Positions 41,032-64,000 of a DNA stretch of 64,000 nt are shown here, piece after piece. The position numbers and the translations under genes were made by a program. The stretch comes from a gamma proteobacterium HIMB30 (GTDB lineage Bacteria > Pseudomonadota > Gammaproteobacteria > Pseudomonadales > Litorivicinaceae): the NCBI GenBank assembly GCA_000227525.2, contig AGIG01000028.1, forward strand, positions 558,001 to 622,000. The letters run 5' to 3'. The notes under the pieces were generated by a model. It worked only from the letters and a program-made list of their open reading frames with translations. It was not told the origin of the DNA and made no database searches. Every line of letters begins with the position of its first letter. The stretch's first letter is position 1.

Positions 41032-41538
41032 TCAATCTTTAATCAGCAAGATCGGCAAGTTGATATTTGATGGCTGTCGGCAAAAACTTGAGCCTTGAAG
41101 AATGTACATTGAGCACGCAAATCGACTGCCATGCCACGAATCTTCCTGTAACCAATAATTATTGACTTCCACGTTCGGAAACACATTTGGATTCAGCGCC
41201 GGATTATCGCAATCTTCTTCGAGGATTCTTTCGAATTCCTTGCGTTTGGGTAGCCGCCATCGTTGACCGGATTTGTCCGAAAACTCTCGGATGTACCCAT
41301 CGGCCTGAGCTCGTGTGACACGGACAGGCTCGCCAATGCACTTTTTACCACGGAATGATTGTCCTGCAGCGCAGCGATACCACACCGTGCCGGAGATGTG
41401 CTGGGCGATCCCTTTCTCTCCATCAACGACAAATTGTCCGTAGTCTTGGGGAGAGGTGACATCACCACAATACGGTTGGCCGATTTCCCGATCGCAGCCG
41501 ACTAACATGAGAGCGATTGCGAGAAGACATACCCTCAT
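41032..41538 (-). CDS. DUF1566-like lipoprotein
   Basis: 168 residues. A signal peptide ends in the lipobox ALMLVGC. The mature part has DUF1566-like features (W-R-L-P-x-x-x-E-F in RWRLPKRKEFERIL, later NYWLQEDSW) and several cysteines (YCGD, RCAAG, KKCIG, DCDN, ACSM, FCRQ) that may form disulfides. Function is unknown; such proteins are often surface or periplasmic. ATG 41538 starts the signal peptide; the frame opens at 41562. Upstream lies the pomA promoter region. Confidence 0.72.
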   Translation of the reverse strand: MRVCLLAIALMLVGCDREIGQPYCGDVTSPQDYGQFVVDGEKGIAQHISGTVWYRCAAGQSFRGKKCIGEPVRVTRAQADGYIREFSDKSGQRWRLPKRKEFERILEEDCDNPALNPNVFPNVEVNNYWLQEDSWHGSRFACSMYILQGSSFCRQPSNINLPILLIKD

Positions 41539-41624
41539 TTGAATTGCTCCATACAGTGTCATTGTGTGTTTTCAATTTAAGCTATTTAATGTATCGGTAT
41601 AAAGCATAAAACTTTTATTTCGCT

Positions 41625-45181: not shown

Positions 45182-46270
45182 TTGAGTACAACATCCGATA
45201 TGATCATCGGCAGTAGTCGTGCGATCAATGAACTCCGAGCACTGATCAGTCAAGCGGCTTCAAGCGATGCAAGCGTGCTGATTCTCGGAGAAAGCGGCAC
45301 TGGTAAAGAGCTTGTCGCGCGAGCCTTGCATACTGAATCCAATCGTGCTGCTTCGAATTTTGTGCCGGTGAACTGTGGTGCAATCCCCCGCGAGCTACTC
45401 GAGTCCGAGTTATTTGGGCACAAACGAGGGGCTTTCACGGGTGCCATTGCTGACCGAACAGGCCGATTTCAATTAGCGGACAACGGCACCCTATTCCTTG
45501 ACGAAATTGGCGACATGCCCACTGAGATGCAAGTGAAGTTGCTGCGAGTTCTGCAGGAGCAGAAAGTTGATCCAGTGGGCTCTACCAAATCCGTCGATGT
45601 CGATGTTCGGATCATTGCAGCAACGCATAGGAATCTGGATTCGTATATCCAAGCAGGCGATTTCCGTGAGGATTTGTATTATCGACTCAACGTGATTCCC
45701 GTGATTCTGCCGTCGCTGCGAGAGCGCCAAGAGGATATCCCTGAGTTGATTCAGTTCTATCTCGAAAAGCATACGCAGGACGGCCAGATATCGAGCTTCG
45801 ATGGCGCGCTGATGGATGCTTTGTGTCAGTATCCATGGCCGGGCAACATTCGCGAATTAGTGAACCTGGTTCACCGGTTGTGCTGCTTTTTCCCGGGTCA
45901 ACCGGTCAGACTGTCAAAGATCCCTGCGGCCCTTCTTCCGAAAGGGATCGCAGAGTTTGGTGCGGGTGGTGCAATCAGCTTTGACCAAAGTTCCCCGCAG
46001 CAAAGTGAAATGGACTTGACTGTCTTTGATGGTGGCGACAATCCTGTCGAGGACATTATTCTGCGCGCACAAGGCAGTGCACCTGCTCCAGATGCGACTT
46101 TGCCGCTTGATGGATTGAATCTAAAAAATCATCTTGCTGAGATTGAGAAGCAATTGATTGTTGATGCACTCTCAAAGTGTGACGGCAATGTTTCGCAGTC
46201 TGCGAGGCTCTTGAATCTCCAACGGACCACGTTAATCGAAAAAATTAACAAGTACGAAATCCAGTCCTAA
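45182..46270 (+). CDS. FleQ/FlrA-like sigma-54 activator without a receiver domain
   Basis: About 362 residues. The AAA+ domain has Walker A GESGTGKE (about 36-43), the sigma-54 contact GAFTGA (83-88) and Walker B GTLFLDEIGD; the Fis-type HTH is at the C-terminus (NVSQSARLLNLQRTTLIEKI). FleQ and FlrA are about 490 residues with an N-terminal receiver-like domain; here the protein begins where that domain ends. The FleQ motif LFRS, which binds c-di-GMP, is not present at the equivalent place. TTG 45182 has GAGGGA upstream; ATG 45200 is possible. Confidence 0.82.
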   Translation: MSTTSDMIIGSSRAINELRALISQAASSDASVLILGESGTGKELVARALHTESNRAASNFVPVNCGAIPRELLESELFGHKRGAFTGAIADRTGRFQLADNGTLFLDEIGDMPTEMQVKLLRVLQEQKVDPVGSTKSVDVDVRIIAATHRNLDSYIQAGDFREDLYYRLNVIPVILPSLRERQEDIPELIQFYLEKHTQDGQISSFDGALMDALCQYPWPGNIRELVNLVHRLCCFFPGQPVRLSKIPAALLPKGIAEFGAGGAISFDQSSPQQSEMDLTVFDGGDNPVEDIILRAQGSAPAPDATLPLDGLNLKNHLAEIEKQLIVDALSKCDGNVSQSARLLNLQRTTLIEKINKYEIQS

Positions 46271-59105: not shown

Positions 59106-59885
59106 TTGGAACTTTTTGTCGCTGATTTGATTGAACGGTTTTATACGGCTTTGTGGCCGTTTCTTCGGATCGGCGCAATGTTGGTTGCTGTTCCGATTTT
59201 ATCGATTGATGCGGTGACGGTCAGAATTCGGGTTTTTCTCACATTATTATTGACGATCTTGGTTTATCCCTTGGTGGATTGGCCTGTCATTGATCCTATT
59301 TCAGCCGAAGGACTGCGTGAGATTTTCAATCAAATACTCATCGGTTTAGTGATGGGATTTTTCCTCCAAATTGTGACAGCAGCTGTCGTTCTCGCTGGTC
59401 AGGCGATCTCCAACTCAATGGGACTCGCAATGGCAACCATGGTTGATCCGAGCATGGGAAACGTGCCTTTGGTCTCTCAATTTATGGTGATCTTGGCGAC
59501 ACTGATATTCTTAGGTGTGGGTGGTCATATGTTGCTCATCGGTATCTTACTGCGCAGTTTTGAGACGTATCCTGTCGGTCTGGCATTCATTGGTCAAAGT
59601 ACCTATGGAATATTGATTGAATGGAGCGCAATGATATTTGTTGGCGGCGTTTTACTTGCCTTGCCAATCATGGTCGCACTACTACTCGTAAATATCGGAG
59701 TTGGCGTGATCACCCGAGCGGCACCGAGCCTCAATATTTTTGCAGTTGGTTTTCCCGTGTTTTTCATGACCGGTTACGCCGTTTTGATCCTATCGTTGGC
59801 TGGTATCGGCTCTCGAATGCAATGGTTATGGATGGAAGGCGTTGACCAAGTGAAGAGCTTTGTCATGGTGCCAGGGGTGCTGTAA
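59106..59885 (+). CDS. fliR: Flagellar export gate protein FliR
   Basis: 259 residues with about six membrane segments. Signatures are FLRIGAMLVAVPILSIDAV near the N-terminus, GLVMGFFLQIVTAAVVLAGQ, SNSMGLAMATMVDPSMG and LGVGGHMLLI. The start is TTG 59106 with AGGAG eight bases upstream. Its stop overlaps flhB (TAATG). Confidence 0.95.
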   Translation: MELFVADLIERFYTALWPFLRIGAMLVAVPILSIDAVTVRIRVFLTLLLTILVYPLVDWPVIDPISAEGLREIFNQILIGLVMGFFLQIVTAAVVLAGQAISNSMGLAMATMVDPSMGNVPLVSQFMVILATLIFLGVGGHMLLIGILLRSFETYPVGLAFIGQSTYGILIEWSAMIFVGGVLLALPIMVALLLVNIGVGVITRAAPSLNIFAVGFPVFFMTGYAVLILSLAGIGSRMQWLWMEGVDQVKSFVMVPGVL

Positions 59886-61036
59886 TGGCTGAAGATACTC
59901 CAGACGACGATCAGAAAACCGAAGAGCCCACCGCCCGGCGGTTACAAAAAGCCCGTGAGGACGGGCAAGTTCCGCGATCGCAAGAACTTGGGATTGCGGC
60001 TGTTATGATTAGTTCGATGGCCTTTCTGTATTTATCAGGTGGGTGGTTAATTGGTCACCTGTCGCAGTTATTTGCGTCGGGTTTTGTCATCGAGCGTCGC
60101 GATATTTTCTCTCCTTATGTTGGATTGATGCATTTTCGGGATATTGGTCGAGATGGGTTTTTACTGATTATTCCATTGCTTCTCCTGACTTTTGTGATCG
60201 CAATTCTGTCTTCATCGGCAATGGGTGGCTTGAATTGGTCTTGGAAGGCAGCAGCCCCGAAAGCGAGCAAGATGAACCCGTTGAATGGATTGAAGCGGAT
60301 GTTTGGTTTGCGCTCTTTAGTCGAATTAGTCAAATCCATTTTGAAATTTTCGTTAGTGGCAGCCGTGCTTGCCTATATGGTTTACGACTTTTCTGATGAG
60401 CTGATTGTTTTGTCCGCGATGAATTTTGAGCCGGCAATGGAAGCGGCCGGGCATATGGTAGGACTGACCTCAGTTCTAGTGACCGTTACATTGGTGTTCA
60501 TTGCAATGATCGATGTACCGTTCCAAAGCTTCGAATTCACCAAGCGTATGCGAATGACCAAACAAGAGGTCAAGGACGAGTTCAAAGATGTTGAAGGTCG
60601 ACCAGAAGTGAAAGCACAGATCCGTCGGAAGCAGCGAGAAATGGCTGAATTACGCATGATGGATGCTGTCAAAGAAGCCGATGTTGTGATTACAAACCCA
60701 GAACATTTCGCTGTCGCTTTGGTTTATGATCCAGAATCAGATGGCGCGCCAATTGTGGTTGCAAAAGGGCTTGATCACGTTGCACTGCGGATACGAAATG
60801 AGGCAAAAGAGCATGGAGTTGTCCAAGTTGAGATCCCACCTTTGGCCCGTGCACTGTATTTCACCACCGATCTTGATCAAGCGATTCCAGAGGATCTGTA
60901 TTACGCGGTGGCTCAGGTGATTGCCTATGTCTTCAGTCTCGCGAGTTTGCGTCGCGATGGTCGAACAGGTCAGGTACCGAATCCGGAGATCCCGGAACAA
61001 TATCGCTTCGATACTGATGGTAATCTAAGCGACTGA
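59885..61036 (+). CDS. flhB: Flagellar export switch protein FlhB
   Basis: 383 residues. The N-terminus KTEEPTARRLQKAREDGQVP, four membrane segments and the cytoplasmic domain ending in the autocleavage site NPEH (about 271-274; enteric forms have NPTH) are clear. NPEHFAVALVYDPES and KGLDHVALRIRNEAKEHGVV follow. FlhB closes the export gate and switches from hook to filament export. flhA usually follows within a few genes; here three unassigned genes do. Confidence 0.95.
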   Translation: MAEDTPDDDQKTEEPTARRLQKAREDGQVPRSQELGIAAVMISSMAFLYLSGGWLIGHLSQLFASGFVIERRDIFSPYVGLMHFRDIGRDGFLLIIPLLLLTFVIAILSSSAMGGLNWSWKAAAPKASKMNPLNGLKRMFGLRSLVELVKSILKFSLVAAVLAYMVYDFSDELIVLSAMNFEPAMEAAGHMVGLTSVLVTVTLVFIAMIDVPFQSFEFTKRMRMTKQEVKDEFKDVEGRPEVKAQIRRKQREMAELRMMDAVKEADVVITNPEHFAVALVYDPESDGAPIVVAKGLDHVALRIRNEAKEHGVVQVEIPPLARALYFTTDLDQAIPEDLYYAVAQVIAYVFSLASLRRDGRTGQVPNPEIPEQYRFDTDGNLSD

Positions 61037-61047
61037 GAGGGAGTGTG

Positions 61048-62691
61048 ATGCAAGAATCTCAAGACATACCGACAAATTTATTATTCGGGGAAGCCGGAGA
61101 GATTTTCTTTCGAGAAAGTGACAACAGTCGGATGAATCGGTTGTTTGAGACCGTCGTTAACGACGGCCTTCATCTCCTCATGACGAGTCAATTGAATGGG
61201 CCTGTCGATCACTATGGCAAACTGTTCCTCAACCGGCTGAAGATGCGTTCAGGTCTCGCTGTCGAGACGTTCATGCCAGTCAGTACAGACGCTCTGATTG
61301 CCCGATTTAACTCGATGTTGAGTGACGTCTCTGTCGAGGAGGCGAGAGATGACAAGGCTCCGATGCCAGGTCGTGTCATCGTGGTCAACGATTTACATGC
61401 AATCGATGGGGAAAACCTTTCACTGCTGATGCGTCTCATTTCTGATTTTCCGAGCCTCAATGTGCGGTTGGTGTTCTTGGCAGATCAGATCCCAAAAGAG
61501 ATGGAGCGGATACTCGAGCGTCTTGGGTCCCGCTTGGTCCGATGGGATGTAGTACCGCCATCACCCGATGAGCAAATGAAATTACGCAAAGAATCAATGC
61601 AAATTGGGCTCGAGTTTCAGGTTGAACGTGTACTCACCCGGATTAATCAATCTGTGGCAGATCAGTTGGAACCCAGTCTTGATTTTGACGATGGGCAGCC
61701 ATCGCTCCAGTTGGATGCGAATCGTGCCCTCGAATCTGGTACTGAGGCAGGGGAGCGTGAAGCTGAGGACATGAAGGCATTGTTTGAAGAGGATGAGGAT
61801 CCTCCTCGATCAAAGGGCCGTTTTCGCTTGGTGCTAATGTTATTGGTCTTTTGCATTATTGGAGTTGTCGGTGCAGCGACAATTTATCCAGATGTGGGTC
61901 GGCAGCTGAACCGTGCGCTTGTATTGATTGGTGTGGATGTACCATTCTTTGATCGACACGAAAAGGAACGCAGCGTCGTCGACGCTGCCTATGACACCGA
62001 GTCTGCCACAATCCCAGTGGAAACAAATACCCAGCCGTTGTCTGAAGAGACCATTGAGATCAAGCAGCCCGAAACAACAGAGCCTCAAGTCAATGAAAGG
62101 CTCAATGTCGCGACAGAAATTGCCGCAGCAGAGATGGCTGCCGATGTGCAGGAAGAAGCGCCAGCCAGCGACCCTCCTGCCAGCCTCCCAGAAAGCGCTC
62201 AGAGTACTGATCCTCTTGCAACCAATCAGGAATCCACTCAAGTTGCGAACGCTGATGGAGACCAGTCGCCAAGTTCGGAGGAGCAGGTCGCATTGGCTGA
62301 ACCAGTCGCCGATCAAGTGACCTCGGATCCTTCGGTTACGGCTGAATCGAGTGAAGATCAAGAGGCACCCCAACCCTCGAGTAATGACGCGATTGAGAAT
62401 CCTCTGATCGCGCGCGTTGCGAATGCGAATCCCACCAGTCAGTTCGTTCAGCACATTGTGCTTGCGTCAGCTGCACGCGCTGAAGAATGGGTGAGTACGC
62501 AGAACGGTCTAGATCGCGCAATTGTGGTTCCTGTTTCGATCAATAATGCGCGGCGATTTGCTGTGGTGAGTGGGCCATTCGAAACGCGGACTGAGGTCAG
62601 GGATTATATTCAAGGAATGGACCAAACAGCCGATTACTGGGTGAGAACAGCAAGATCTTTGCAAAGAATTGCGTTAATCGGGGATGAATGA
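61048..62691 (+). CDS. SPOR-domain membrane protein with a degenerate ATPase-like cytoplasmic domain (DamX-like)
   Basis: About 547 residues. N-terminal about 200 residues look like a GspA/DamX-type AAA domain that has lost its P-loop: the A region reads SQLNGPVDHYGKLFLNRL and a Walker B-like strand reads RVIVVNDLHAIDG. One membrane segment lies at about 261-281 (LVLMLLVFCIIGVVGAATIY). A long low-complexity acidic linker follows, then a SPOR domain at about 470-547 (QFVQHIVLASAARAEEWV, ARRFAVVSGPFETRTEVRDY). SPOR domains bind denuded septal peptidoglycan. It begins 11 bases after flhB. GAGGGAG precedes ATG 61048. Confidence 0.8.
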   Translation: MQESQDIPTNLLFGEAGEIFFRESDNSRMNRLFETVVNDGLHLLMTSQLNGPVDHYGKLFLNRLKMRSGLAVETFMPVSTDALIARFNSMLSDVSVEEARDDKAPMPGRVIVVNDLHAIDGENLSLLMRLISDFPSLNVRLVFLADQIPKEMERILERLGSRLVRWDVVPPSPDEQMKLRKESMQIGLEFQVERVLTRINQSVADQLEPSLDFDDGQPSLQLDANRALESGTEAGEREAEDMKALFEEDEDPPRSKGRFRLVLMLLVFCIIGVVGAATIYPDVGRQLNRALVLIGVDVPFFDRHEKERSVVDAAYDTESATIPVETNTQPLSEETIEIKQPETTEPQVNERLNVATEIAAAEMAADVQEEAPASDPPASLPESAQSTDPLATNQESTQVANADGDQSPSSEEQVALAEPVADQVTSDPSVTAESSEDQEAPQPSSNDAIENPLIARVANANPTSQFVQHIVLASAARAEEWVSTQNGLDRAIVVPVSINNARRFAVVSGPFETRTEVRDYIQGMDQTADYWVRTARSLQRIALIGDE

Positions 62692-63128
62692 TGAGTGGTG
62701 ATGAGTTATTCCGTCAGGACAACGGTGGTCAATCCGAGACTGCAGTCGTCGGTAACGGGCCCTCATCCAAGCATCAATCATCGCGTACGCGGGGTCCCAG
62801 TGTTGGAGTCGACCAGTATAACGATCGTTTAGTCCGCGTAACCGATGATGCAACACTCGGAACTGCGCATCTCAGTGGTCAGAGACAACGCACTTCGAAA
62901 GACTTGAAAGCCGAACTTCAGGCGGTGGCTGAGTTGACTCCTGTGAGTTGGAGTCTCAAACCCTGGAAGCCAGGATCACTGAGTCGCGATCTCCAGATTC
63001 GTATTCAAGACGCTGAGTCTGCTGTTGAAAAAATGCAAACAATGATTGACGGTCTGTCAGAACAAGTCGCCGTGTTATGCGGCGAAGTTGATTTAACCGA
63101 TTCAGATGATGATTCGGAAGAGGATTAG
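62688..63128 (+). CDS. Small acidic soluble protein of the post-flhB cluster
   Basis: 146 residues. No known domain. The N-terminal half is polar, glycine/serine-rich and probably disordered. A central stretch with Trp and Pro (LTPVSWSLKPWKPGSLSRD) leads into a likely helix (LQIRIQDAESAVEKMQTMID, then GLSEQVAVLCGEVDL) and a run of acidic residues at the end (DSDDDSEED). The start overlaps the SPOR gene stop (ATGA), so both are coupled. No membrane segment is present. Confidence 0.72.
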   Translation: MMSGDELFRQDNGGQSETAVVGNGPSSKHQSSRTRGPSVGVDQYNDRLVRVTDDATLGTAHLSGQRQRTSKDLKAELQAVAELTPVSWSLKPWKPGSLSRDLQIRIQDAESAVEKMQTMIDGLSEQVAVLCGEVDLTDSDDDSEED

Positions 63129-63139
63129 GAGGCAATACA

Positions 63140-64000
63140 ATGAGTGGCGAAGATCCAGAAGACAAAAAGGTTGAGAATCCCGCAGCTGATGATGACTCCA
63201 TTGACGATGATTCTTTGGATGATGTGTTCGAAGTTGATGAGACTTTTGACGTTGACGGTGATTTTGAGGTGGATCCGGAGGCTGCCGAAGCCCTCGCTAC
63301 GATGGCTGAAGCATCTGATGTCGCAGTCGGAGAATCAGCCGGCCAACAGCCAACGCTCGATGCAACACTATCGGATTCAATACGCTTAGCTGATGAGCTC
63401 GTGAAAACCCGAATCGAGAAAATTCATGAGGCGGGTGAGAAGTCAGTTTCACAAGCGGTCGAATCGATGGAAACGCTCATCGGTTCGGTACTGGATGCAA
63501 CTGAGGCCGCAACACGCGCATCGGCAGCAGCCAGTACGTCGACCACTAATCTTGTGAAGTCTGCAGGTCGTTTGACCCAAACAGCTGATCGCAGTTCGCG
63601 AATTTCCACGATCGTGCTATCCGTTGGTGGAGCGATGTTATTTATTTCGGTTGCGGTGTTCGGCTTTATGGCTGCGCAGCTTGCACAGCGAACAAGCGAG
63701 CTCGAATCGATGGTGATGGCTGTCGGTAAACGGGTTGTCGAAATGAATGTGGCGTTCGGGGAGTTCACCGCTGTGACTGATTCGCTTGATCAGTTACGAC
63801 TGACTCAGGAAACGTTTCGTGACAGCGTGTATCAATTGACGGAGCGTGTGAATGGAATGACAGAAACACTCCAAGCCGTCAGAAGTGAAGTTCCTGTCAC
63901 GACAGCTGAATCTGTTGGACGGCAGAGTGAGGTCTTCACAGCTCGCGTGTCAGATGTTGAAGGTCAGATTCAAGCGCAACAGAAAATTACAGGAGATCTT
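63140..64000 (+). CDS. One-TM acidic/coiled-coil protein, 3' end cut by the window
   Basis: Open from ATG 63140 to the window end, 287 codons without a stop. A perfect AGGAGG lies seven bases upstream. Residues 1-60 are strongly acidic (SIDDDSLDDVFEVDETFDVD), then a helical, chemoreceptor-like stretch (ELVKTRIEKIHEAGEKSVSQ). One membrane segment lies at about 158-179 (IVLSVGGAMLFISVAVFGFM). After it comes a heptad-like coiled coil with periodic hydrophobics. No known family is recognised. It is the third gene of the post-flhB cluster. Confidence 0.78.
   Translation, partial: MSGEDPEDKKVENPAADDDSIDDDSLDDVFEVDETFDVDGDFEVDPEAAEALATMAEASDVAVGESAGQQPTLDATLSDSIRLADELVKTRIEKIHEAGEKSVSQAVESMETLIGSVLDATEAATRASAAASTSTTNLVKSAGRLTQTADRSSRISTIVLSVGGAMLFISVAVFGFMAAQLAQRTSELESMVMAVGKRVVEMNVAFGEFTAVTDSLDQLRLTQETFRDSVYQLTERVNGMTETLQAVRSEVPVTTAESVGRQSEVFTARVSDVEGQIQAQQKITGDL

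Follow-up and report, generated by a model that had tools for sequence, protein, structure and literature searches.

Results

Three conserved genes follow flhB

The window analysed here, a stretch of 64,000 nucleotides from the gamma proteobacterium HIMB30, ends within a group of three genes, here termed P1, P2 and P3, that lies directly behind the flagellar export gene flhB (Table 1). P1 starts 11 bases past the flhB stop codon, P2 overlaps the end of P1 by an ATGA, and P3 follows P2 after another 11 bases with an AGGAGG in front of it. An earlier note on this DNA, made from its letters alone, had described the same arrangement, and its coordinates, both gaps, the overlap and the ribosome binding site all hold. 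Reading frames, gene order and spacing are kept across the genus (Litoricola/Litorivicinus, OM252 clade). Between close species pairs, dN/dS amounted to 0.027–0.029 for P3, 0.033–0.048 for the AAA part of P1, 0.07–0.11 for its SPOR domain and 0.43–0.49 for the linker, compared with 0.035–0.048 for flhB. Thus, P3 and the head of P1 are constrained like a core export protein. The conserved frames, order and spacing together with the low dN/dS values establish P1, P2 and P3 as real genes and not as a chance join with flhB. They are probably transcribed together with flhB; promoter and terminator scans revealed no excess. We found no description of the three genes in the open-licence literature.

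Table 1. Positions of flhB, the three genes behind it, their domains and the two orphan genes facing them.
Feature	Position	Strand	Description
flhB	59885..61036	+	First gene of the conserved unit; TIGR00328, 383 bits
P1	61048..62691	+	547 aa; pseudo-AAA+, one membrane helix, fast-evolving linker, SPOR
P1 pseudo-AAA+ domain	61099..61668	+	aa 18-207; no Walker A; from AlphaFold model and fold search
P1 membrane helix	61828..61884	+	aa 261-279; hydropathy maximum 2.88
P1 SPOR	62425..62688	+	aa about 460-547; PF05036; match to DamX SPOR profile, E 1.6e-9
P2	62688..63128	+	Small, acidic end, no membrane helix; ATGA overlap with P1
P3 ribosome binding site	63127..63132	+	AGGAGG, from sequence; overlaps P2 stop
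P3	63140..64000	+	Cut by the window end; full gene to 64249, 369 aa
P3 membrane helix	63611-63667	+	aa 158-176
Y234	L002:6246-6950 (window equivalent 64246-64950)	opposite to P3	234-aa membrane protein
X176	L002:6965-7495 (window equivalent 64965-65495)	opposite to P3	176-aa protein

The source contig runs on past the window end and carries further flagellar genes there. On the opposite strand and facing P3 lie Y234, X176, fliA, fleN, flhF and flhA, in this order. The product of fleN matches the MinD family, and the FlhF match stays under its cut-off. The earlier note had pointed out that flhA, flhF and fleN do not come next within the window and had placed the new genes where flhA would be expected. 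Indeed, none of the three follows P3 within the window, but all of them, together with fliA, are encoded just past its end. As a statement on gene order the replacement is true throughout this flagellar lineage, although flhA itself is present nearby in inverted orientation. The sequence beyond position 64000, which might have exposed an ordinary cell-division locus, is flagellar. Further along we found flgP-like and flgT-like genes (borderline Pfam matches), followed by the gene of a 159-aa protein, LysM-like in our reading though without a Pfam match, and by a fliK-like gene. P3 and Y234 are convergent and their ends overlap by four bases (L002:6246-6249). Y234 and X176 are orphan genes behind fliA that are conserved in the genus.

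Anatomy of the proteins

The AlphaFold model of P1 (mean pLDDT 58) is good mainly over residues ~21–190, and its best matches among solved structures are almost all AAA+ proteins. The place of the P-loop reads DHYGK or similar; a Walker A motif occurs neither in the genus alignment nor in 24 homologous P1 frames from Burkholderiaceae. The assignment as a degenerate ATPase proposed from the window is thereby borne out. The SPOR domain, likewise proposed at the outset, is weak in P1 of the window (17 bits against a cut-off of 21). With the complete reading frame, the score narrowly exceeds the cut-off (21.1 bits), and the domain holds in the relatives, being recognised by PF05036 in 11 of 13 members from the genus (best E 1.9e-5). 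It is missing in 7 of 23 P1 proteins from Burkholderiaceae, one additional frame being truncated where its contig stops.

P3 combines an acidic N-terminus, a single membrane helix and a long coiled coil. Its model is all-helical with one membrane span, at a mean pLDDT of 60 and, as for everything outside the AAA part of P1, with low confidence. A motif near the C-terminus, ALVTLQRER, is almost invariant, and the Pfam models that P3 matches describe generic coiled coils. One strong helix each in P1 and P3 agrees with the initial description of two single-span membrane proteins; the distribution of charges gave no clear membrane orientation. PDB sequence searches with P1, P3, Y234 and X176 returned no match.

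Distribution in the genus

Among 22 genomes of the genus, P1 was found in 16 and P3 in 15, the contig of one genome (G007) ending before P3. Fifteen of the 16 genomes with P1 contain flhB proper; in the sixteenth (G008) the contig begins just before P1. The other six are devoid of P1, P3 and flhB alike. Wherever contigs allow, the gene order is fliR-flhB-P1-P2-P3 facing Y234-X176-fliA-fleN-flhF-flhA, whereas the sister genus has the ordinary order fliR-flhB-flhA. For the OM252 group, flagellar genes in 18 genomes have been reported, and strain LSUCC0096 has yielded evidence that its flagellum is polar (PMC8269220). This cultured member of the genus (G001) carries all three genes.

In one genome, G006 (L083, L267), frameshifts and stop codons break fliF-fliI and flhB-P1-P2 but leave fliL-fliR, P3 and the flhA operon largely intact. 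We dropped this case as a natural experiment on flagellar decay, because the breaks hit fliF-fliI as well as flhB-P1 and decay is inseparable from assembly error.

A second group in Burkholderiaceae

A scan of 84,980 species with two conserved P3 peptides yielded nine P3 loci outside the genus, mostly in records labelled Burkholderiales (Rubrivivax, Hydrogenophaga, Comamonadaceae); one labelled Fonsibacter is taken to be a mis-binned record. flhB lies just upstream of P3 in all nine, with P1 in between in six. By profile search, P3 was present in 18 of the 401 members sampled from one such family, amounting to 4–5% of the sampled Burkholderiaceae. In this second group, flhB directly precedes the cassette at 24 of 24 loci with readable upstream sequence, P1 adjoins flgP instead of flhB in three genomes, motB-motA commonly follows P3, and flgP-flgT are found nearby. 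Proteins resembling Y234 and X176 (25–40% identity) follow fliA in several P3-bearing Burkholderiaceae. The association with X176/Y234, motB-motA and flgP-flgT indicates that the unit exceeds three genes.

Proteins similar to those of two additional window genes also occur in P3-bearing Burkholderiaceae. One of these genes (41035-41562, minus strand) encodes a 176-aa, lipoprotein-like product bearing an Lcl_C domain and adjoins motA, as does a relative in several P3-bearing Burkholderiaceae. The other, for a sigma-54 activator lacking a receiver domain (45221-46267), precedes fleQ; in P3-bearing Burkholderiaceae, similar proteins are encoded next to mot and flgP.

When 369 genomes were sampled across the class, P3 was matched solely in the genome of the window itself and, marginally, in G279 (E 1.3e-6), by a chemoreceptor-like 565-aa frame that was rejected. 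Two weak candidates were likewise discarded: a match near flhB in G033 (E 1.6e-4) is the acidic start of FliN, and one in G029 is a chemoreceptor-like frame of 676 aa. Class-wide matches to the P1 profile were SPOR domains only, from DamX and further proteins of the envelope. Within our samples the three genes thus occur nowhere besides the genus and some Burkholderiaceae. Homologues were seen only in flhB-bearing genomes and in none of the six genus genomes without flhB. The flagellar link, which the earlier note was ready to abandon if homologues lived mostly without flagella, therefore persists in two distant groups, both tied to flhB.

Phylogeny of the export proteins

In an FlhB tree from a quick search without bootstraps, the proteins of the genus group with those of P3-bearing Burkholderiaceae (SH-aLRT 99, stem 0.66), and this clade stands apart from P3-negative Burkholderiaceae, Pseudomonadales and the sister genus. 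An FlhA tree of the same kind, which lacks the sister genus owing to the early end of its contig, gave the same split from ordinary Burkholderiaceae (100, stem 1.27). In P3-negative members of the family, flhA is directly next at 25 of 27 flhB loci. Judged from these sequences, the flagella accompanied by P1–P3 are a distinct flagellar lineage. The simplest reading is that the cluster probably spread between the groups by horizontal transfer in one direction or the other; the alternative would be an old, vertically inherited system that was lost many times. As the flagellar block is not set apart by its base composition, the transfer reading rests on the trees.

Discussion

Very probably, P1, P2 and P3 serve this flagellum in some way. 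Like other accessory parts of flagella, they are found only together with the machine itself: in the genus exclusively in genomes with flhB, and in Burkholderiaceae behind flhB at 24 of 24 loci. FlgP, FlgT, MotX/MotY and PflA/PflB are likewise periplasmic or membrane parts limited to some lineages, and flgP-like and flgT-like genes share the cluster. However, P1–P3 match no Pfam or NCBIfam model for any of these proteins.

As to what the three proteins do, we favour, with a probability of about 45%, an inner-membrane scaffold of this motor type that reaches the peptidoglycan and the periplasmic rings. P1 and P3 would be inner-membrane components located around the export gate and the motor base. 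The pseudo-AAA+ domain of P1, devoid of an ATP-binding loop, might serve on the cytoplasmic side as a fixed platform for docking, with P2 as a small adaptor. The coiled coil of P3 and the periplasmic linker of P1, together with the SPOR domain in those P1 proteins that have one, could extend to the peptidoglycan and to rings of the FlgP/FlgT type, and rings and stators would thereby be held at the motor. In support of this, linkage to flhB is exclusive and the FlhB and FlhA trees track the cassette. Moreover, the neighbours are motor parts, with motB-motA behind P3 and P1 beside flgP in three genomes. The anatomy, an AAA+ fold without Walker A, membrane helices, a SPOR domain of the DamX type and a coiled-coil P3, is consistent with such a role, as are dN/dS values as low as for flhB and the evidence of a polar flagellum in LSUCC0096. 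What counts against the scaffold is the missing SPOR domain in 7 of 23 P1 proteins from Burkholderiaceae, the low confidence of the models outside the AAA part and a charge distribution from which no clear membrane orientation emerges.

The scaffold might work in a way resembling the GspA/GspB anchor or the motor scaffolds of Campylobacter, while belonging to neither. GspA/GspB (ExeA/ExeB) likewise combine an AAA-type domain with a membrane helix and a part that binds peptidoglycan, next to a machine spanning the envelope. GspB/OutB is reported to anchor the secretin of the type II secretion system to the inner membrane and the peptidoglycan (PMC9239104). P1 differs from these proteins by its lack of Walker A, by a SPOR domain in place of the usual peptidoglycan-binding domain and by its flagellar locus. 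We found no sequence match between them, and no GspA-type peptidoglycan-binding domain was among the Pfam matches of P1.

An accessory envelope complex anchoring the export apparatus or motor, or a system marking the pole or septum, had been proposed from the window. The flagellar link and an anatomy fitting an envelope role have stood up, but 7 of 23 P1 proteins from Burkholderiaceae lack SPOR, which excludes marking of the peptidoglycan or septum as a core function common to all. This absence also weighs on the idea of a pole-targeting landmark, in which the SPOR domain of P1 would read the peptidoglycan of the new pole, recruit the machinery and aid FlhF and FleN in placing a single polar flagellum. 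In favour of a landmark are the binding of SPOR domains to denuded septal glycan, the proximity of the flhF and fleN genes, and the evidence of a polar flagellum in LSUCC0096. On the other hand, FlhF and FleN are already there. FimV/HubP and FipA are inner-membrane proteins linked to polar flagella, yet P1, P2, P3 and Y234 gave no match to FimV or to DUF2802 (FipA), nor did X176 to DUF2802. Altogether, we regard a landmark function as unlikely.

Somewhat more doubtful still is a transient assembly factor that would help the export gate or periplasmic rings to be inserted across the peptidoglycan and would be absent from the finished motor. The location directly behind flhB, or of P1 beside flgP in some genomes, and the GspA/ExeA-like layout of AAA domain, membrane helix and peptidoglycan binder are compatible with such a factor. 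However, no P1 has a Walker A motif, which makes an ATP-driven step unlikely, and ordinary flagella assemble without the three proteins.

Finally, P1 has the order of AAA domain, membrane helix and SPOR domain in common with the division protein DamX, and its SPOR domain belongs to the same subfamily. In contrast to DamX, P1 lacks an intact Walker A, is located behind flhB and tracks flagella, and the same genomes have a separate damX in the aroB-damX-gltB locus; the AAA parts of both proteins show no significant alignment. The damX genes of the genus (L140:3012-3839 in G000, beside gltB; also L134, L135, L137-L139, L141 and L142) encode proteins of ~260–290 aa that possess Walker A and a membrane helix yet are devoid of SPOR, whereas the sister genus has a full DamX. 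As the SPOR-less damX occurs in species of the genus both with and without flhB, P1 did not simply take over the role of DamX; it is DamX-like in layout and not a DamX. That P1 is a displaced copy of DamX merely residing in a flagellar operon, with P2 and P3 as passengers, is highly improbable despite its DamX-kind SPOR domain and the SPOR-less damX between aroB and gltB, because flhB-less species have the same SPOR-less damX and no P1, showing P1 to be dispensable for division, and because P1 of Burkholderiaceae stays beside flhB or flgP and its AAA part does not align significantly with that of DamX.

In a wider sense, we tentatively propose that P1–P3 and the two orphan proteins encoded behind fliA make up a motor substructure unseen in characterised flagella, with a pseudo-AAA+ membrane assembly next to the export gate as its core, and that this separate flagellar lineage moved as a cluster between Burkholderiaceae and OM252/Litoricola. 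Marine OM252 bacteria and some Burkholderiaceae possess a separate lineage of polar flagella with several uncharacterised proteins that are lacking from ordinary polar flagella. As LSUCC0096 is in culture and has evidence of a polar flagellum, which extra motor parts can be acquired is directly testable. If the proposal is true, a pseudo-AAA+ domain fixed by the export gate would represent a novel type of motor part.
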